A stretch of DNA of 64,000 bases. Origin: Acidobacteriota bacterium (lineage in GTDB: Bacteria > Acidobacteriota > Terriglobia > Terriglobales > Acidobacteriaceae). The translations under genes and the position numbers were made by a program. Below, piece after piece: positions 27,530-51,973 of this stretch (the stretch's first letter is position 1; every line of letters starts with the position of its first letter). The DNA lies in assembly GCA_003225175.1 (NCBI GenBank), contig QIBA01000043.1:1-64000 (forward strand), read 5' to 3'. The notes under the pieces are model-generated. The model saw nothing but the letters and a program-made list of their open reading frames with translations. It ran no database searches and was not told the DNA's origin.

Positions 27530-28531
27530 CTAAGAGGATCTCGCGCCGGCGAGTTCGGCATACCCTTGAGGATGTTGCTGCATCCACTCCCAGGCGCTGG
27601 CAACAATGTCGTCGAGCTTCGGGCGTTTGGGTTTCCATCCGAGTTCTCGCTTGATTTTTTCCGAGCTGGCAACCAGCACCGCCGGATCGCCAGGACGCCG
27701 TCCGGTTTCGACCTCCCTGATTGGTTTCCCGGTGACCCGCCGAGCGGACTCGATGACTTCGCGCACGGAGAACCCAGTCCCACTTCCCAGGTTGTAGATG
27801 AGCCGATCGCGCGAGCCGAGAGCTTCCAGGGCCAGGACATGAGCGTCGGCAAGATCGCTCACGTGGATGTAATCACGAATGCAGGTTCCATCTTTGGTCG
27901 GATAGTCCGTCCCGAAGATCGAGATCTGTTCCCGTTTTCCCGAGGCCGCCTGAAGTATCAACGGAATCAAGTGTGATTCAGGATTGTGCAGCTCACCGGT
28001 GCGTCCGTCCGAACCGGCGGCATTGAAGTACCGCAAACTCGCGTAACGCAGGCCGTGGATGCGATGGAACCAGGTAAGCATCTGCTCCACCAGCAGCTTG
28101 GACTCGCCATAGACGTTGGTAGGCTGTAGCTCGTCATCTTCCTGGATTGGAACTCGCTTCGGATTGCCATAGAGCGCCGCCGTAGAAGAAAAAATGAATT
28201 TCCCTACGCCATGAGCCAACATTGCCTCGAGGAGCGTGAGAGTGGAGGCGGAATTGTTCCGAAAATACCGTTCTGGGACCTGCATCGATTCGCCGGCTTC
28301 GATGAGTGCGGCGAAATGGAGCACCGCTTCGGGACGATGTTCGCGAAAGACGGCATCGAGCTGAGCGCGGTCAGCGATCTCTCCCCTAACGAGCTTCGCC
28401 TCTGCAGGAAGTGCCTCGGCATATCCTTTGCTTAGGTTGTCGTAGACAACTACTTTATGTCCGCTATCGAGCAGAGCCCGCACGGTGGTTGCGCCGATAT
28501 AGCCGGCGCCACCAGTCACTACGACCCTCAT
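27530..28531 (-). CDS. galE: UDP-glucose 4-epimerase
   Basis: Extended short-chain dehydrogenase of 333 residues that interconverts UDP-galactose and UDP-glucose. The ATG at 28531 has GAGGAG 6 nt upstream and opens the NAD loop VVVTGGAGYIGATTV. The frame extends ten codons upstream, but those are read from a palindromic repeat. Catalytic elements: IFSSTAALYGNP (Ser/Thr), NVYGESKLLVEQML (Tyr-x-x-x-Lys), then LRYFNAAGSDGRTGE and RDYIHVSDLADAHVLAL. The C-terminus YNLGSGTGFSVREVIE fits GalE. First gene of galE-galK-galT; the leader carries a 28-bp palindrome 15 nt from the start codon. Confidence 0.96.
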   Translation of the reverse strand: MRVVVTGGAGYIGATTVRALLDSGHKVVVYDNLSKGYAEALPAEAKLVRGEIADRAQLDAVFREHRPEAVLHFAALIEAGESMQVPERYFRNNSASTLTLLEAMLAHGVGKFIFSSTAALYGNPKRVPIQEDDELQPTNVYGESKLLVEQMLTWFHRIHGLRYASLRYFNAAGSDGRTGELHNPESHLIPLILQAASGKREQISIFGTDYPTKDGTCIRDYIHVSDLADAHVLALEALGSRDRLIYNLGSGTGFSVREVIESARRVTGKPIREVETGRRPGDPAVLVASSEKIKRELGWKPKRPKLDDIVASAWEWMQQHPQGYAELAGARSS

Positions 28532-28546
28532 GGTTTCTCCTCGGCA

Positions 28547-28574
28547 GTAGAGACGCAGCATGCTGCGTCTCTAC
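28547..28574. repeat. 28-bp perfect palindrome, copy 2
   Basis: Identical in all 28 positions to 18734-18761. Its edge is 15 nt upstream of the galE ATG, so in the galE transcript it would fold into a 14-bp hairpin beside the ribosome-binding site. Confidence 0.9.
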
Positions 28575-28687: not shown

Positions 28688-28716
28688 TTGACGGCTCGCG
28701 AATTGTGCACTAGGAT
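28688..28716 (+). promoter_or_regulatory. candidate sigma70 promoter of the threonine operon
   Basis: TTGACG (28688-28693) and TAGGAT (28711-28716) are separated by 17 nt. Transcription would start near 28723, only about 6 nt before the leader ATG at 28729, so the leader peptide would be nearly leaderless. That close fit is a reason for caution; an upstream promoter is possible. Confidence 0.45.
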
Positions 28717-28728
28717 GACGAGACTTTG

Positions 28729-28812
28729 ATGAACTCCCGCCGAATTACCATGTCGATGACAACAACAGGGACAATTATGTCCACTGCTCGACCGGCGGAG
28801 GGGGATATCTAA
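28729..28812 (+). CDS. threonine-operon leader peptide
   Basis: A 27-codon frame ending in TAA at 28810, too short for usual gene calls. It contains six Thr codons (7, 11, 12, 13, 15, 19; ACA three times in a row at 28759-28767), three Ile and four Met. These are the amino acids derived from the aspartate/homoserine route that the downstream genes serve. The core is TMSMTTTGTIMST. The frame lies upstream of a strong terminator and lysC, as thrL does in E. coli, but the sequence is not a copy of thrL. The ribosome-binding site is weak (GAG 6 nt upstream). It probably acts in cis by ribosome stalling and the peptide itself has no other role. Confidence 0.8.
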   Translation: MNSRRITMSMTTTGTIMSTARPAEGDI

Positions 28813-28868
28813 GCACTAATAAGTTCTAGAGATACCAAAACCCACCGCCAAAAGGCGGTGGGTTTTTT
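28794..28868 (+). promoter_or_regulatory. transcription attenuator: antiterminator/terminator switch
   Basis: Segment 2, GGCGGAGGG (28794-28802), can pair with segment 3, CCCACCGCC (28841-28849), in 8 of 9 positions. Segment 3 can alternatively pair perfectly with segment 4, GGCGGTGGG (28854-28862), to make the terminator. Segment 2 lies inside the last codons of the leader frame. A ribosome that reaches the stop at 28810 would cover segment 2 and allow termination; one stalled on the Thr codons at 28759-28773 would leave it free to form the antiterminator. A segment 1, CCGCCG at 28737-28742, can pair with 28793-28798 and would give the default fold without translation. Confidence 0.75.
28837..28868 (+). 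terminator. intrinsic terminator ahead of lysC
   Basis: A 13-bp perfect stem (28837-28849 with 28854-28866), AAAA loop, and six T residues at 28863-28868. It lies between the leader peptide and lysC, 30 nt before the lysC start codon, so readthrough must be regulated for the operon to be expressed. Confidence 0.93.
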
Positions 28869-28898
28869 ATTTCCCGGAACTGTGAACCTGGAGTTGCC

Positions 28899-30326
28899 AT
28901 GCTGGTAATGAAGTTTGGCGGAACCTCGGTAGCTTGCGCGGAAAACATCGCTCGCATCGCGAGAATCGTGCGCGAACGGCTTCACCTCCAACCTGTGGTC
29001 GTCGTCAGTGCATTGGCCGGGGTTACCGACGGCTTGCAGAGGATGGGTGCGCTGAGTCGTGATGGCGAAGTTGAGGAGGCGTTATCGCTTCTTCAAGTCT
29101 GCGAAGATCGCCATTGCGAAGCCGCTAGAGCATTGCTCTCGAACAAGAGCGAAGCATTTTTGCAGAACGACCTGCGGCCGCTTTTTGACGAGGCTGGTGC
29201 TCTGCTCAAAGCCGTCTTCGCCGTTCAGGAGCTGACTCCGCGTACCCTCGATCGGCTGCTCGGCTTTGGCGAACGCTGGTCGAGCCGTCTGGTTGCGGAA
29301 GCATTTCGCGCTGAAGGTCTTCGCGCGGTTCACGTGAATGCCTGCGATGTCGTGATCACCGATGCGAACTATTCGCATGCCGCGCCGCTGGTGGATCTCA
29401 TCAGAGCCCGCGTAGCCACCAAGATTCGTCCGCGAGTGCAGAGCGGCTGCGTTCCCGTGCTCGGCGGATTCATCGGATCAACTGAGGACGGTATTCCCAC
29501 TACGCTAGGTCGCGGCGGCTCCGATTACACAGCATCGATTCTCGGCGCCAGCATCGACGCCGATTCCATCGAGATCTGGACCGATGTAGACGGAATGATG
29601 ACCGCCGATCCCCGCATTTGTCCGGACGCGCAAAACATTGAATCCATCAGCTTTGATGAAGCCGCCGAACTTGCGCATTTTGGAGCCAAAGTATTGCATC
29701 CGAAGACGCTGCAGCCTGCCGTGAATCGTGGCATTCCCGTTTATGTCCTTAACTCGCGGCATCCGGAGAACTGCGGGACGCGCGTGGAAGTTGCAGAGCC
29801 GAGTGAAGAAGGCCGGGTTCGATCCGTCGCCTGTAAGCGCGGCATCACTCTGGCAGAGGTATTCGCACGCCAGGGACTCGAGGCAAAACTCACCTCCGCG
29901 ATCTTCGATGCCCTCGAACGGCAGAAATGCCTCGTCGATCTCGCCGCGATGTCGCGCTCGAACCTTTCCTTGCTGTTGAACTCTCGCAGCTCGGCAGACG
30001 CGCTTTGCGAATTTCTCGAAGACAAGGCATCGGTCAACGTCGTCGATGGCAGCGCGCTGGTCTCGCTCGTTGGCCGCAACGTCGCGCGAAATCCTGCCAT
30101 CTGTGCCCGTGCTCTGAATGCCCTCCCCGACCTGCCCCTCAGGATGATCTTCCACGGCGCCTCTGACATGAATCTCAGCTTTGTCGTGGCCGAAGAAGAT
30201 GCCGATAAGGTTGTGCGCTGTCTGCATGCCGCGTTGTTCCCGCGCCAGCCTGCAGCTCGCCAAGCTGAGGCTCAGGTTCCGCCGAACAAGTCGCAAGAGC
30301 CAGCGTTAGTCCAGGCGGAGGCATAG
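28899..30326 (+). CDS. lysC: aspartate kinase
   Basis: First enzyme of the aspartate family pathway, making aspartyl phosphate; 475 residues, monofunctional (no homoserine dehydrogenase fused). The ATG at 28899 has GGAG 6 nt upstream. The kinase domain has MLVMKFGGTSVACAENI (catalytic Lys5), GFGERWSSRLVAEAFR, LGRGGSDYTASILG and EIWTDVDGMMTADPR. Residues about 310-450 hold two ACT-type regulatory domains (GITLAEVFARQGLEAKLTSAIFDAL; NLSFVVAEEDADKVVRCLHA), so feedback control by Thr or Lys is expected. It heads lysC-hom-thrC-thrB and, given the upstream Thr attenuator, is probably the Thr-responsive isozyme. A hydrophilic tail follows the last ACT domain. Confidence 0.94.
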   Translation: MLVMKFGGTSVACAENIARIARIVRERLHLQPVVVVSALAGVTDGLQRMGALSRDGEVEEALSLLQVCEDRHCEAARALLSNKSEAFLQNDLRPLFDEAGALLKAVFAVQELTPRTLDRLLGFGERWSSRLVAEAFRAEGLRAVHVNACDVVITDANYSHAAPLVDLIRARVATKIRPRVQSGCVPVLGGFIGSTEDGIPTTLGRGGSDYTASILGASIDADSIEIWTDVDGMMTADPRICPDAQNIESISFDEAAELAHFGAKVLHPKTLQPAVNRGIPVYVLNSRHPENCGTRVEVAEPSEEGRVRSVACKRGITLAEVFARQGLEAKLTSAIFDALERQKCLVDLAAMSRSNLSLLLNSRSSADALCEFLEDKASVNVVDGSALVSLVGRNVARNPAICARALNALPDLPLRMIFHGASDMNLSFVVAEEDADKVVRCLHAALFPRQPAARQAEAQVPPNKSQEPALVQAEA

Positions 30327-30330
30327 AGAC

Positions 30331-31626
30331 ATGGCAACCCAAAGCGTACTCATTGAGAAAAGCGCGCACCTGGTTGCGTCGCTGAATTCACGGAGGGTAG
30401 CAATCCTTGGATTCGGGACCGTGGGCAAGTCGGTAGCTCGCATTTTGTCGGAAGGAAGAGTGGCTGCCCTGGAACTCAGCCAGGTCTTCAACCGCAATGT
30501 TGAGAGAAAGCGTGTTCCCTGGGTGAACCGCAAGGTTCAGTGGACCGAGAACATCGACGATGTACTCGCGAGCGACGCAGAGTTTGTCGTCGAAGTCATG
30601 GGAGGTGTAGAACCCGCGAAGCAATGGGTTGAAGCCATTCTGGAATCCGGCCGATCAGTGGTTACGGCAAATAAACAACTGATTGCGCGCCATGGCGCAG
30701 AACTTTTGGAGATCGCACAGGAACACGACTGCCAATTGCTCTTTGGCGCTTCCGTAGCTGGTGGAGTTCCGGTCATCACTGCCCTTGAACACGGACTCGC
30801 AGGCGACGAGCTCCAATCTGTTTGCGGCATTCTCAATGGCACCTGCAACTACATCTTGAGCAAGATGGAAGGCGGAGAATCTTTTCGCGTTGCTTTGGAG
30901 GAAGCGCAACGGCTGGGTTACGCCGAAGCCGATCCCACTGACGACATTGCCGGATATGACACTCGCGCCAAGCTCGTAATCCTCGCGAGAGTGGCTTTGC
31001 GTACGGAAATCGCGATCGAAGAGGTTGTTTGCCAGCCGATCTCCAGCGTCGATCCAGTTGATTTCGAATACGCGCGGGAGTTGGGCTGCACCATCCGACA
31101 GATTGGACACGCCGAGCTCGAAGGAGACAGATGCTGTGCCGCCGTCGAGCCGATGCTGGTTCCCGCGAGTTCACCGCTGGCCCGAGCGCAGGGCTGTGAG
31201 AACGTGGTTCTTACCCAAGGCAAGTTTGGAGGCAGCACTGCGTTCTCTGGTCCAGGTGCTGGTGGCGACGCGACCGCGGTTGCTGTGATCTCAGACCTCG
31301 TAACTCTTGCTTCTGCATCTTCAGCTCCAGTAATTCGCAAGATGCGAGCCCTGCCTGTCTCGGGTGAATATACCGCGCCATATTTCTTGCGGTTCGTCGT
31401 CCGCGACCGGCCCGGCATCGTCGCGGCAATTGCTGCGGTTCTCGCGAAGTTTGAAATCAATGTAGACGCCGTGTTCCAGAAGCCGGGTTACGACAAAGCC
31501 CACTTACCGTTTGTAGTTACGGTTGAGCCGTGCAGCAGCGCAAAGCTTGAGGCAGCTCTTAACGAAATTGCGCGCTATGAATTCCTGGTTGAACAACCCG
31601 TCAAACTGAAGATCTTCGGACGCTGA
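30331..31626 (+). CDS. hom: homoserine dehydrogenase
   Basis: A 431-residue NAD(P)-dependent enzyme reducing aspartate semialdehyde to homoserine. It starts 4 nt after lysC. Motifs: VAILGFGTVGKSVARIL (nucleotide loop), VVTANKQLIARHGAELLEIA, the signature GASVAGGVPVITALEHGLAGDELQSVCGILNGTCNYIL (with the G-I-L-N-G-T-x-N-Y-I core), and AEADPTDDIAGYDTRAKLVILAR with the catalytic Lys. The C-terminal ACT domain (YFLRFVVRDRPGIVAAIAAVLAKF) suggests Thr feedback. About 25 residues at the N-terminus precede the Rossmann fold. Confidence 0.96.
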   Translation: MATQSVLIEKSAHLVASLNSRRVAILGFGTVGKSVARILSEGRVAALELSQVFNRNVERKRVPWVNRKVQWTENIDDVLASDAEFVVEVMGGVEPAKQWVEAILESGRSVVTANKQLIARHGAELLEIAQEHDCQLLFGASVAGGVPVITALEHGLAGDELQSVCGILNGTCNYILSKMEGGESFRVALEEAQRLGYAEADPTDDIAGYDTRAKLVILARVALRTEIAIEEVVCQPISSVDPVDFEYARELGCTIRQIGHAELEGDRCCAAVEPMLVPASSPLARAQGCENVVLTQGKFGGSTAFSGPGAGGDATAVAVISDLVTLASASSAPVIRKMRALPVSGEYTAPYFLRFVVRDRPGIVAAIAAVLAKFEINVDAVFQKPGYDKAHLPFVVTVEPCSSAKLEAALNEIARYEFLVEQPVKLKIFGR

Positions 31627-31627
31627 T

Positions 31628-32842
31628 ATGCAACTGCAATGCAGTAATCAACGCTGTGGCGAATCGCTACCCCGCGATTTTGCAGCTTTCGATTGTCCCA
31701 AGTGTGGCGACCTGCTGGAGCTTAGCTGCAATGGCTTTCGGCCTGATCCACTGCAGCTTCGGGCCTTGTGGCGCGATCGCCGTCTTTCTAACGATCCTGC
31801 GGATCGCAGCGGCGTCTGGAGGTTTCGAGAGTTCCTGCCTGATTACTCCGTTGAGCAGATAGTTTCGCTCGGCGAAGGAAATACTCCGCTCATTGCCGGG
31901 AACAAGACAGCGGCATTCGCCGGCTTAAGTAATTTGCGGTTCAAGCACCTGGGTTGGAATCCAACCGGCTCGTTCAAAGATTTAGGAATGACCGTGGCGG
32001 TGACCGAAGCGCATGCGCGAGGAGCCAAGGTCGTAGCTTGCGCGTCGACGGGCAACACCGCGGCTTCCATGGCTGCCTATGCCGCTCGAGCGGGTATCGC
32101 TGCTCGGGTCTATTTGCCAAAAGGAAGACTCTCGGCTGCCAAGGTTGCTCAGTCTCTCGATTACGGCGCTGAGATCGTTGAGGTCGAAGGAAACTTCGAC
32201 CAGGCTCTCGCAATGATGACCGAGCAAAAGAGCTCGTCAGAGTACTTCCTGAACTCCATCAATCCATTCCGCGTTGAGGGTCAGAAGACGACGATCTTCG
32301 AGCTGATGGAACAGCTCGACTGGAATCCGCCCGACTTCATTGTTGTTCCCGGAGGGAATCTGGGCAATTCTTCCGCATTTGGGAAGGCGCTTCGGGAGCT
32401 CTCTGCTGCAGGGTTGATTGATCGCGTGCCGCGGCTCGTGATCGTCCAAGCGCGAGGTGCAAATGCGCTGGTGAAAACACTGGCTGCCGGCAGCGGTGAA
32501 CTTGAAACGGTTGTCGATCCGAAGACCTGTGCCAGCGCCATTTCGATCGGCGCTCCACGATCGTGGCGCAAAGCTCTCACCGCTCTCAATTTCACGAAGG
32601 GCAACGTTCTCGACGTCAGCGACGAGGAGATCCTCGAAGCAAAGTCCGTCATCGGGCTTGACGGCATCGGATGCGAGCCCGCCTCCGCGACTACTCTCGC
32701 CGGCATCCGGCGTCTCAGGCGAACTGGAGAAATCGGCGAGCGCGACAGAGTCGTCGCCGTTCTCACCGGTCACGTTCTGAAGGATCCCGACATCATCTTG
32801 AAGACGCACAGTGAACGGCTGGCAGCGGAGGTATCAGCATGA
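31628..32842 (+). CDS. thrC: threonine synthase
   Basis: PLP enzyme converting O-phosphohomoserine to threonine; 404 residues. It begins 1 nt after the hom stop. The N-terminal zinc-ribbon-like block has Cys5, Cys10, Cys23 and Cys26 (CSNQRC, CPKC), typical of the longer bacterial threonine synthases. The PLP lysine is Lys117 in NPTGSFKDLGMT, and the phosphate-binding loop is STGNTAASMAAYAARAG. Later motifs FRVEGQKTTIFELMEQL and VPGGNLGNSSAFGKALREL match the class. It overlaps thrB by 4 nt. Confidence 0.96.
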   Translation: MQLQCSNQRCGESLPRDFAAFDCPKCGDLLELSCNGFRPDPLQLRALWRDRRLSNDPADRSGVWRFREFLPDYSVEQIVSLGEGNTPLIAGNKTAAFAGLSNLRFKHLGWNPTGSFKDLGMTVAVTEAHARGAKVVACASTGNTAASMAAYAARAGIAARVYLPKGRLSAAKVAQSLDYGAEIVEVEGNFDQALAMMTEQKSSSEYFLNSINPFRVEGQKTTIFELMEQLDWNPPDFIVVPGGNLGNSSAFGKALRELSAAGLIDRVPRLVIVQARGANALVKTLAAGSGELETVVDPKTCASAISIGAPRSWRKALTALNFTKGNVLDVSDEEILEAKSVIGLDGIGCEPASATTLAGIRRLRRTGEIGERDRVVAVLTGHVLKDPDIILKTHSERLAAEVSA

Positions 32843-33768
32843 TGTGGAGCGATTGCCTGGAAGGCGTCGAAATTAGTGTGCCGGGATCGATTGCGAACCT
32901 CGGTCCCGGCCTCGATACGTTAGCGGTAGCCGTGCAGCTTTACCTGAGAGTTCGCATTGTAGGGGTTAGCAACGCAAGACGTGGAAAGCTCGAGTTCTAT
33001 TTCGAATCGCAGACTCCGCCCGGCGAGAATCGCATCGAAACATCATTTTTCAAGCTGGCGCAGAATAACGGCGATTTTCCTTCCCTAAAGATCAGCGTCA
33101 GCAGCGACATTCCCATGGGTGCCGGACTCGGCAGCAGCGCCGCCGCGACCATCGCCGGATTTCGTCTCTATGAAGTTCTCTTTGGTAAGCAAAATGAGAA
33201 TCGACTACTCTCCGCGGCTTTGCAGTTGGAAGGACACGCTGACAATGCTGCCGCCGCGCTCCTTGGTGGGCTCTCGGTCTGCTGCCAAAAAGATGATGGT
33301 TCCGTATCTGCTTTCTCGCTTCCATGGCCGGAGTCGCTCTGCCTGGTTGTCTTAACTCCGGAGGTCCGGCTGGCAACGCAGACCTCGCGTCAGGCTCTGC
33401 CGCAGTCAGTGAGTTTGAAAGATGCCGTGGCCAACATGCAGCGAGTGTTGCTCCTGCTGCAGTCCATCCAGAGCGGCGACGATGGGGATTTGGCGGAAGC
33501 GCTTTGCGACCGCCTTCACCAACCGGCGAGAGAATCGATCGTGCCTGGGTTGAGTGCTGCGCTCAAGCTCTCACATCCCGATCTTCTCGGAGTCTTCCTT
33601 GGCGGCTCCGGGCCATCGATCGTGGCCCTGGCGCGCCAGAGTTGCGACGACATTGCCGATGTCTTGGCGGAAACCTACCGGCCGCTTGGCATTCCGTTTC
33701 GAACTTCCACGCTGAGCGTTCATAACCAGGTGAGCCTTCCTGCCTGCGCTGCGATCAGTTGCAGCTGA
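32839..33768 (+). CDS. thrB: homoserine kinase
   Basis: GHMP kinase of 309 residues that phosphorylates homoserine for ThrC. It overlaps the thrC stop by 4 nt (ATGA), indicating coupled translation. Motifs: VSVPGSIANLGPGLDTLAVAV-like N-terminus (VPGSIANLGPGLDTLA), the ATP loop SDIPMGAGLGSSAAATIAGF and the C-terminal GVFLGGSGPSIVALA. The order lysC-hom-thrC-thrB completes the route from aspartate to threonine, except for aspartate semialdehyde dehydrogenase, which is not in the window. Confidence 0.95.
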   Translation: MMWSDCLEGVEISVPGSIANLGPGLDTLAVAVQLYLRVRIVGVSNARRGKLEFYFESQTPPGENRIETSFFKLAQNNGDFPSLKISVSSDIPMGAGLGSSAAATIAGFRLYEVLFGKQNENRLLSAALQLEGHADNAAAALLGGLSVCCQKDDGSVSAFSLPWPESLCLVVLTPEVRLATQTSRQALPQSVSLKDAVANMQRVLLLLQSIQSGDDGDLAEALCDRLHQPARESIVPGLSAALKLSHPDLLGVFLGGSGPSIVALARQSCDDIADVLAETYRPLGIPFRTSTLSVHNQVSLPACAAISCS

Positions 33769-50655: not shown

Positions 50656-51302
50656 TACTGTCGTCCAGCCCGGGTATCGAGAGCTGAGGCCGGAGTCTCG
50701 GGAAATTCGAAGTGGAGCCGAATTTCATTATCGGTTTTGACCCCGAATTGAGTTGGTTGGTCGATGCCGTATTCGCTGAGCTTGACCATGCCATCGCCGC
50801 CAGCGCGGAAGACAGGCGCGCCGGCAGCCTCACGGATTTTCAACACGACGACGAAGCTTCGTGGTGTACCGCGAATAGTCAAAGTACCTGAGACCCTGCA
50901 GCTAGCCTCGCGGCCAGGGACAATCCCAGGACAGGAGACACCCTCGCCCTCGAATTTCACGTCGGGAGTCTGTCCATCTGGGGTCCGAAAGACATGCTCA
51001 CGCATGTGCTGATCACGCAACGCTATGCCAGTGGCGAGAGTTTTGACTGGGAGTCGGGCCTCGATGCGCTCCAGCGTCACTCCATCAGCATTACGGCGTA
51101 GCTGGACGCGAGCCAGCAAGGCGTCGGACTTACCTTTAACGAACAGGCCCGGCATATTCGTCCCAACCTGGAAAGTCGCTGAGGCATGCTCGATCTGGAT
51201 GGTCTCTGGCTTGCCCGGATCGCCGGAGGGTCCCGGGGAGCTCGAGGCCGGAATTCCCAGGGTCGCGAGGAAGAGCAGAACCGCATTCCACAACCTTGGC
51301 AT
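50655..51302 (-). CDS. YceI-family lipid-binding protein
   Basis: A 215-residue exported lipocalin-like protein of the YceI family. Signal peptide MPRLWNAVLLFLATLGIPASS, then the family features: IEHASATFQVGTNMPGLFVKGKSDALLARVQLRRNADG at the start, IALRDQHMREHVFRTPDGQTPDVKFEGEG (the region D-x-H-M-R/K-x-x-x-F is typical) and SGTLTIRGTPRSFVVVLKI near the end. YceI proteins bind isoprenoids such as ubiquinone-8 precursors. Its gene lies upstream of, and overlaps, a haem-motif protein gene, so a role around quinones or periplasmic electron transfer is a reasonable inference. A Cys pair (CPGIVPGREASC) may form a disulfide. Confidence 0.88.
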   Translation of the reverse strand: MPRLWNAVLLFLATLGIPASSSPGPSGDPGKPETIQIEHASATFQVGTNMPGLFVKGKSDALLARVQLRRNADGVTLERIEARLPVKTLATGIALRDQHMREHVFRTPDGQTPDVKFEGEGVSCPGIVPGREASCRVSGTLTIRGTPRSFVVVLKIREAAGAPVFRAGGDGMVKLSEYGIDQPTQFGVKTDNEIRLHFEFPETPASALDTRAGRQ

Positions 51303-51385
51303 GGCCTTCTCTGTTGGACAGGCAAGCTTAATGTGAAAAATCGGCGGGCATCCCCGCAGGATGCCCGCTGAAACGTGAGAGTCAA

Positions 51386-51973
51386 CTAGCGATCGTCGTC
51401 GTCATTGTCGTGGTCGTTGTCACGCTCGCGCTTGAGTTGTCCGCGAATCTCTCCCCCTGGACTTCGCGAGCTGTGCACATTGGCGTAAGAGAGTCCCGCT
51501 TTGATCGCGCCCACCAGTCGCGCAAAAGCGTCTTCACCGTTGGGATTATTGGCTTCTACGCCCTGAGATGCGGGCCCGGTAATGTCGGCCGCTCTCCACG
51601 TTCCTGTTACTGCGTCATTGGGCGTACCCGGGCCGGCGGATGCTGGACACAACTTCTTTGTCGCCTCGGTATTCCCGCCGCCGCAGAAAAATACAGAAAC
51701 GCCACCTACGACAGTGGGTCGGCCGATGTGAATGTGGGCTTGGGTGACTGTGCGACCGGTGCCGGTACTACCCTCCAGGCCGTTGTAGGTGAGTTCGTAG
51801 TCGATCGATTTTTCATCATGGCTGATCGTGATCTTCGCGTGCCCAGCCGCTCCGCTGATCACGATGGGGGTTTCTCTCAGACCAGCCAATTTGGCGCTGA
51901 AGATAGTTTGGGCAAGGGCATTCGTCGTAAACAGCGCGCTTGCCACCACAGCTGCGAAAACTCTTAATTTCAT
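51386..51973 (-). CDS. secreted CHRD-domain protein
   Basis: A 195-residue exported protein. The ATG at 51973 has GGAGG about 6-8 nt upstream and opens the signal peptide MKLRVFAAVVASALFTTNALA; the longer frame to 52051 has none of these. The CHRD domain (chordin-type repeat) is seen in AKLAGLRETPIVISGAAGHAKITI, IDYELTYNGLEGS, QAHIHIGRPTVVGGVSVFFCGGG and GEDAFARLVGAIKAGLSYANVHSSRSPGGEIRGQL (terminal A-Y-x-N-V-H-x-x-x-x-P-G-G-E-I-R-G). A His/Asp-rich acidic tail (DNDHDNDDDDR) ends the protein and may bind cations. Function in bacteria is not established. Confidence 0.9.
   Translation of the reverse strand: MKLRVFAAVVASALFTTNALAQTIFSAKLAGLRETPIVISGAAGHAKITISHDEKSIDYELTYNGLEGSTGTGRTVTQAHIHIGRPTVVGGVSVFFCGGGNTEATKKLCPASAGPGTPNDAVTGTWRAADITGPASQGVEANNPNGEDAFARLVGAIKAGLSYANVHSSRSPGGEIRGQLKRERDNDHDNDDDDR

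Follow-up and report, generated by a model that had tools for sequence, protein, structure and literature searches.

Putative threonine attenuation ahead of lysC-hom-thrC-thrB in an Acidobacteriota bacterium, and candidate leaders with other codons across its family

Introduction

How are the threonine genes of an Acidobacteriota bacterium controlled when they are preceded not by a known regulatory RNA but by a short, threonine-rich open reading frame and a hairpin? In E. coli, a run of Thr/Ile codons in the short leader peptide thrL is followed by an antiterminator and an intrinsic terminator that exclude each other, with the thr genes downstream. A first-pass annotation of the window (the whole 64,000-nucleotide stretch of DNA analysed here) proposed a complete threonine attenuator of this kind ahead of lysC-hom-thrC-thrB, with a leader unrelated in sequence to thrL and no described counterpart in Acidobacteria known to it.

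In 2010, according to the available portions of one survey, leader-peptide systems were known from Proteobacteria and Actinobacteria, and almost none of the attenuators predicted in Acidobacteria had an associated function (PMC2965389). The accessible part of another study suggests that the amino-acid attenuators in Rfam may have originated in γ-proteobacteria (PMC3766115). Further sources, each available in part, report leader genes in Acidobacteria from distance statistics (PMC4833913), two Acidobacteria RNA motifs labelled as not cis-regulatory (PMC2864571) and ilvB leaders that carry codons for Thr and for branched-chain amino acids (PMC10272879), while the accessible part of PMC6429828 holds nothing on Acidobacteria or threonine. 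Within the open-access literature searched, a scope that leaves aside subscription papers and above all the closest survey (Lopatovskaya 2010), we found no precedent for leader peptides or attenuation in Acidobacteria, and the annotation's remark stands uncontradicted.

Results

The leader region and its operon

The leader region is flanked by lysC and, on its other side, by a divergent gene on the minus strand (27530-28561). Together with the operon, it comprises the following features:

28688-28716, plus strand: predicted sigma-70-type promoter, TTGACG-17-TAGGAT (one found against 0.2 expected)
28729-28812, plus strand: leader ORF, 27 codons and TAA
28734-28742, plus strand: segment 1, CTCCCGCCG, paired with segment 2 in the MFE structure
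28747-28785, plus strand: regulatory stretch, from reading of the sequence
28793-28803, plus strand: segment 2, CGGCGGAGGGG, antiterminator core, from the sequence and the duplex test
28837-28868, plus strand: intrinsic terminator, a 13-pair hairpin (28837-28866) and a T run (28863-28868)
28841-28849, plus strand: segment 3, CCCACCGCC, from the sequence, terminator scan and duplex test
28854-28862, plus strand: segment 4, 3' arm of the terminator hairpin
28890-28893, plus strand: GGAG, likely Shine-Dalgarno sequence of lysC, from reading of the sequence
28899-30326, plus strand: lysC, aspartate kinase (second copy), NCBIfam
30331-31626, plus strand: hom, homoserine dehydrogenase, NCBIfam over cut-off
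31628-32842, plus strand: thrC, threonine synthase, NCBIfam over cut-off
32839-33768, plus strand: thrB, homoserine kinase, NCBIfam over cut-off

Direct reading confirms the Thr-rich frame. Its product, MNSRRITMSMTTTGTIMSTARPAEGDI-stop, contains six Thr (codons 7, 11, 12, 13, 15 and 19), three Ile and, counting the start codon, four Met, and three consecutive ACA codons occupy 28759-28767. Within the regulatory stretch, Thr codons start at 28747, 28759, 28762, 28765, 28771 and 28783, Met codons at 28750, 28756 and 28777, and an Ile codon at 28774. The promoter-like motif predicts a transcription start near 28723. The terminator hairpin has 13 pairs without mismatch, A-T pairs included, and six T directly behind it, and it lies between the leader ORF and lysC, as expected of a ribosome-mediated attenuator; on the plus strand between 28500 and 29000, the terminator scan found nothing else apart from a smaller hairpin nested in it. 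Segments 2, 3 and 4 had been placed correctly by the first-pass annotation, which called the attenuator complete; it had overlooked segment 1, which pairs with segment 2 in the predicted fold. The spacing that it considered right for attenuation, with segment 2 ending 6 nt before the leader stop codon and the ACA run 25 nt away from segment 2, is borne out by the sequence and by the masked folds in silico described below.

The operon of separate genes that it described is likewise recovered, as NCBIfam names hom, thrC and thrB and identifies the first gene as an aspartate kinase, whose product exceeds the general TIGR00657 cut-off and falls below those of the specific equivalogs. Two copies of lysC were found in the genome, the one in the window at 28899-30326 and another at G000:C40:62011-63246. 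In three genus relatives (L115, L116, L118), a gene with an asd-like end, as judged by eye, precedes the other copy, and no Thr leader was seen ahead of that copy.

Folding and chance expectation in the window

The 144-nt leader folds with an MFE of -58 kcal/mol, against -32.2 +/- 3.7 kcal/mol for shuffled sequences (z -7.0; 0 of 200 shuffles as good), into a 1:2 helix beside the 3:4 terminator. The alternative between 2:3 and 3:4 exists as annotated: the 2:3 duplex reaches -17.1 kcal/mol and beats dinucleotide shuffles (p 0.023), and the 3:4 terminator reaches -23.6 kcal/mol, so that antitermination through the weaker 2:3 pairing must be kinetic. With the segment 2 core, the 1:2 duplex reaches -16.9 kcal/mol (p 0.072 for this single locus), and p is 0.79 over longer regions. 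Among swapped segment 3 sequences, the window's own 2:3 partner ranks poorly (0.60), presumably because segment 3 differs little between loci. When the leader is masked 5' of segment 2, only 1 of 100 shuffles is as good by energy, and in the free RNA without a ribosome 2:3 does not form, as expected if 1:2 protects. At the Thr frequency of eight window genes, the probability of at least six Thr in 26 codons is 7e-4.

No Rfam family, the Thr_leader family RF00506 included, matches the window at gathering score, and RF00506 has no match in the whole genome at E<=0.001, in agreement with the earlier view that the leader is unrelated to the thrL family.

Conservation within the genus

The genus search covered six genomes including the window's own, and three of the five others carry the window lysC copy, at 89% (G100), 87% (G054) and 65% (G103) identity; G101 and G102 yielded at best lysC genes of other types (48% and 37%, respectively). 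In all three carriers, the promoter, both segments 1 and 2 and the terminator are retained, as is the open frame with its run of Thr or of Thr and Ile codons (promoter and leader frame are conserved in loci L002, L111 and L112), and GGCGGAGGG of segment 2 is invariant in the four genus members. Two of the four, L111 among them, have TTG in place of ATG at the leader start position. The frame, kept open in all four, is thus probably translated. The leader of G103, the genome with the most divergent LysC of the three, encodes MNAIRRISIEITITRTSMPTIESAEGCS, a peptide that closely resembles the E. coli thr leader in composition. The G100 upstream sequence is identical to that of a MAG contig, QIBC01000029.1 (Acidobacteria gp1 AA112; L031). 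Conservation in the genus is also good between the leader stop and the terminator (TAAGCA.TAA.AAGTT, one gap).

The first-pass annotation had proposed such a comparison, expecting conserved Thr codons and covarying arms. Terminator, Thr-rich frame and segment 2 are indeed kept, and the comparison strongly supports the threonine reading; the expectation of covarying arms did not hold within the genus, where the four-genome count gave one compensatory pair (29:80, GC/GU/AU) whose score shuffles equalled in 270 of 500 cases, so that covariation there is not demonstrated.

Leaders accompany partnered hom operons in the family

We sought hom in 150 genomes of the family, 121 of which gave a match, and scanned 80 hom regions from 79 genomes, nearly all of the strongest matches outside the genus (the regions of G148, G079, G008, G125 and G121 and weaker matches were set aside), for a terminator at most 330 nt upstream of the first gene with an ORF ending near it. 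Terminator and ORF were found in 24 of the 29 loci where hom has lysC, thrC, thrB, met or ilvE partners, and 21 of the 29 have a terminator and a leader with at least three Thr or Met in 12 residues; L175, L181 and L186 have a terminator and an ORF with two. One locus counted among the 21, L209, is doubtful, as its 'MATSGSATSTATYKLTVQ' probably belongs to the end of a coding gene upstream. Two loci (L157, L185) were missed by the script, and their leader and hairpin are evident on reading and testing; in two other partnered operons (L202, L205) no leader was seen. Among the 51 hom loci without detected partners, 44 lack the combination of terminator and ORF, seven have it with at most two Thr or Met in 12 residues, and none combines a terminator with a leader rich in Thr or Met. 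Candidate leaders of this kind are distributed over many genera.

As a control, 954 regions upstream of other genes in the window and the fetched loci were scanned, and eight had a terminator behind an ORF with at least four Thr or Met in 12 residues; these eight include L299, itself a genuine member, and one artefact read out of frame. An apparent second Thr attenuator in the window, at 51302-51400 on the minus strand (MTTTTTMTTTIAS and a terminator), was rejected: the ORF corresponds to the Asp-rich end of the gene upstream, read out of frame, and the terminator lies directly behind that gene, the two together mimicking an attenuator. In named genomes, among the best 80 of 561 lysC loci, 77 of 78 stand-alone lysC loci have no Thr leader (75 of 76 testable, since L100 and L109 have no upstream sequence), and both lysC-hom loci have a terminator, with five Thr in L031 and two in L044.

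Outside the family, 40 loci were selected from the rest of the class. Of these, 39 are hom-only, none with more than three Thr or Met in 12 residues; the sole lysC-hom locus, L299, has the leader MRSTATTTTTRTGGCG and a terminator. A phylum-wide hom search gave suggestive leaders in 2 of 11 other-family loci, L387 (MPANRTVSTTVVPTKAPATRGPRG) and L382 (ending VNVALMTLVMTCRQAVGRDGGVAPI), which suggests a wider spread in the phylum. In both, a possible Thr/Met/Val leader and a strong terminator precede a hom-thrC(-thrB) operon. A Cys-rich frame is present at the hom locus L390, from another family.

Competing pairings across 30 loci

For pairing tests we selected 30 loci with a visible leader, namely the window, L002, L111, L112, 25 family loci and L299; the set does not include L194, L202, L205 or L209. 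In 24 of the 30, 2:3 pairing is stronger than in dinucleotide shuffles at p<0.05 (combined p 5e-26); for the 1:2 helix this holds in 12 with the segment 2 core (combined p 1e-14) and in nine when long regions are used, the combined values being only indicative, as related loci are not independent. Among swapped partners, a locus's own partner has a mean rank of 0.15 for 1:2 and 0.21 for 2:3, where about 0.5 is expected. With the leader masked 5' of segment 2, segment 3 pairs with segment 2 over at least eight pairs in 30/30, an outcome that shuffles reach in 47% of cases on average; the energy of this masked fold is within the best 5% of shuffles in 23 loci. With a ribosome modelled on the leader stop, 3:4 forms in all 30. 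In 16 loci the free RNA already forms 2:3, so protection by 1:2 is not universal.

In the last 30 codons of these leaders, ACA makes up 95 of 158 Thr codons, against 29 of 206 in eight window genes, and Ile is encoded by 57 ATT, 25 ATC and 4 ATA, against 78, 144 and 15 in the window genes. As T-ending Ile codons are preferred too, the ACA bias is partly a preference for A/T and not a choice of rare codons. A 7-mer, CGAATTA, occurs in 18 of the 30 Thr-type leaders (at 28741-28747 in the window and in 17 others), although well under one is expected by frequency in the window; where the reading frame divides it into CGA ATT, third positions of codons are thereby fixed, and selection beyond the peptide may therefore act on it.

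Leader codons follow operon content

All seven lysC-hom-thrC-thrB leaders (L157, L161, L162, L166, L168, L180, L188) are of Thr/Ile type, and those of lysC-hom-thrC (L229, L231) carry Thr and Met. Where ilvE lies within the operon (lysC-ilvE-hom-thrC-thrB; ilvE of L156 named by NCBIfam), the leaders abound in Ile, Val, Leu and Thr, for example ILLRLLIVMVTATAV in L156 and STVIMTVTRIIV in L163. The three hom-metX (L172) and hom-metY-metX loci (L154, L193; metY and metX of L154 named by NCBIfam) all have a terminator behind a Met/Cys leader ORF, with RITMAMRMRFW, AMAMSMHMC and TTMAMCMHIC, respectively.

Because of these Met/Cys leaders, metY-metX operons without hom were examined as well. From 30 metX loci, three of them the hom-met loci already included and seven not chosen, we took 20 metY upstream regions (L332-L351), and 18 of these, for example those of L337 and L343, have a Met/Cys-rich leader before a terminator (15 found by script, and L340, L344 and L345 by eye), such as STMAMCICMCICGRG and GAMAMCMCMACG. 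The exceptions are L347, which is doubtful, and L350, which is cut by the contig end. The 2:3 pairing beats shuffles in 12 of the 18 Met leaders, and Rfam gave no riboswitch or T-box at gathering score in the 20 regions, only one tRNA. Among the best 30 metY loci of the class sample, a terminator behind at least four Met or Cys in 12 residues was found in 8 of the 10 family loci (L355 is cut and L356 has none; six of the ten genomes were already in the first metY set) and in none of the 20 loci from other families. By composition and position, the metY-metX leaders form a candidate methionine/cysteine attenuator, the most novel part of this study and one for which, as far as we found, the open-access literature searched holds no precedent, for Met leader attenuators in general included.

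Predicted near-leaderless starts

A promoter search (at least 8 of 12 matches, at most 40 nt allowed, best-scoring start codon of the frame taken, which favours hits) found a promoter upstream of 35 of 48 leaders, comprising the 30 Thr-type loci and the 18 Met leaders. In these 35, the end of the -10 box lies a median of 10 nt (range 3-19) from the chosen start codon, which predicts a transcription start about 4 nt before it; the start codon taken is doubtful in L162, L175, L185 and L351. In the window, the script took a TTG codon (28726) that immediately precedes the ATG. The ATG itself is 12 nt from the -10 box, with a predicted 5' UTR of about 6 nt, too short for a Shine-Dalgarno sequence.

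Discussion

Proposed mechanism and alternative explanations

We favour the reading that a ribosome-mediated transcription attenuator controls lysC-hom-thrC-thrB, to which, judging from sequence comparison and folding, we assign a probability of roughly 0.9. RNA polymerase would start near 28723, with a ribosome loading immediately on the leader start codon. Under ample charged tRNA-Thr, this ribosome would reach the stop codon at 28810 and cover segment 2, leaving 3:4 to form and transcription to end near 28868. Under Thr shortage, it would stall on the ACA codons (28759-28773), covering segment 1 and freeing segment 2, whereupon 2:3 would form ahead of the synthesis of segment 4, allowing transcription of the operon. 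If the leader were not translated, 1:2 would form and 3:4 would terminate. The charging of tRNA-Met and tRNA-Ile is probably sensed as well, the Met codons being likely extra sensors.

A different explanation would put the terminator under the control of a trans-acting factor or of an RNA that binds a ligand (a riboswitch or a target of an RNA-binding protein), with the Thr frame either incidental or encoding a functional small peptide. The conserved stop-to-terminator stretch in the genus and the recurrence of CGAATTA in the leaders speak for it, as codon sensing alone explains neither, but the Rfam results for the window and the metY regions argue against it, leader composition shifts with the end product of the operon, and the peptides of different genera share composition, not sequence, so that we regard this explanation as improbable. 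Still less credible is leader-peptide attenuation acting at translation, through a hairpin that hides the ribosome-binding site, or through Rho. The accessible part of PMC1262725 has Rho proposed for mycobacterial cys leaders; here, however, a mismatch-free 13-pair hairpin is directly followed by six T, and 23 nt separate the hairpin from the lysC GGAG at 28890. An ordinary, unregulated terminator of an upstream unit behind a frame that is Thr-rich by chance might be entertained, since short ORFs are common and the Thr count alone has a probability of only 7e-4, but it is in practice refuted by conservation, given a leader kept in 4/4 genomes found with the window lysC and associated with operon type, and the gene at 27530-28561, being on the other strand, has no transcript to end at 28868.

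Extending ribosome-mediated attenuation beyond the window, we think it rather likely that in this Acidobacteriota family it generally controls the aspartate pathway from near-leaderless starts, with codons swapped according to the operon (Thr/Ile and Met; Ile/Val/Thr with ilvE; an undescribed Met/Cys type for hom-metY-metX and metY-metX), and that the window leader senses several end products of homoserine. Classic attenuation would thereby extend to a major soil phylum, beyond Proteobacteria and Actinobacteria, and the family would offer a natural series in which the codons of one regulatory design change together with the genes of the operon, allowing the evolution of attenuator specificity to be tested directly. 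If true, the sensing of Met/Cys by a leader would represent an amino-acid specificity for which we found no earlier case, and the sensing of Met, whose codon also starts proteins, a mechanistic puzzle. The near-leaderless starts would make ribosome-polymerase coupling testable in an unusual setting.

Comparison with known systems

Leader-peptide control outside Proteobacteria includes, in the available portions of the sources, the trp and leu/ilv attenuators of Actinobacteria and the Cys leaders of the mycobacterial cys operon (PMC1262725), and the His leader of Bacillus hisS/hisZ (PMC2965389), all of which differ from the window leader in amino acids and genes. The same part of PMC1262725 reports that neither conserved RNA structures at actinobacterial thr and met operons nor terminator hairpins at its Cys leaders were observed, whereas terminators are present at the Met/Cys leaders of the window's family. 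It also treats S-box (SAM) riboswitches as RNA control of met genes (PMC1262725); at metY, where Rfam finds no riboswitch, their place is taken by a Met/Cys-rich frame.

The closest likeness in design is to thrL of E. coli, with which the window shares a Thr/Ile run in the leader, mutually exclusive antiterminator and terminator, and thr genes downstream. Having no match to the covariance model RF00506, it would work like thrL without being a member of that family. In contrast to E. coli, the window has separate lysC and hom genes, the order thrC-thrB, Met codons in the leader and a leader start codon that follows the predicted transcription start by about 6 nt, and it belongs to a different phylum.
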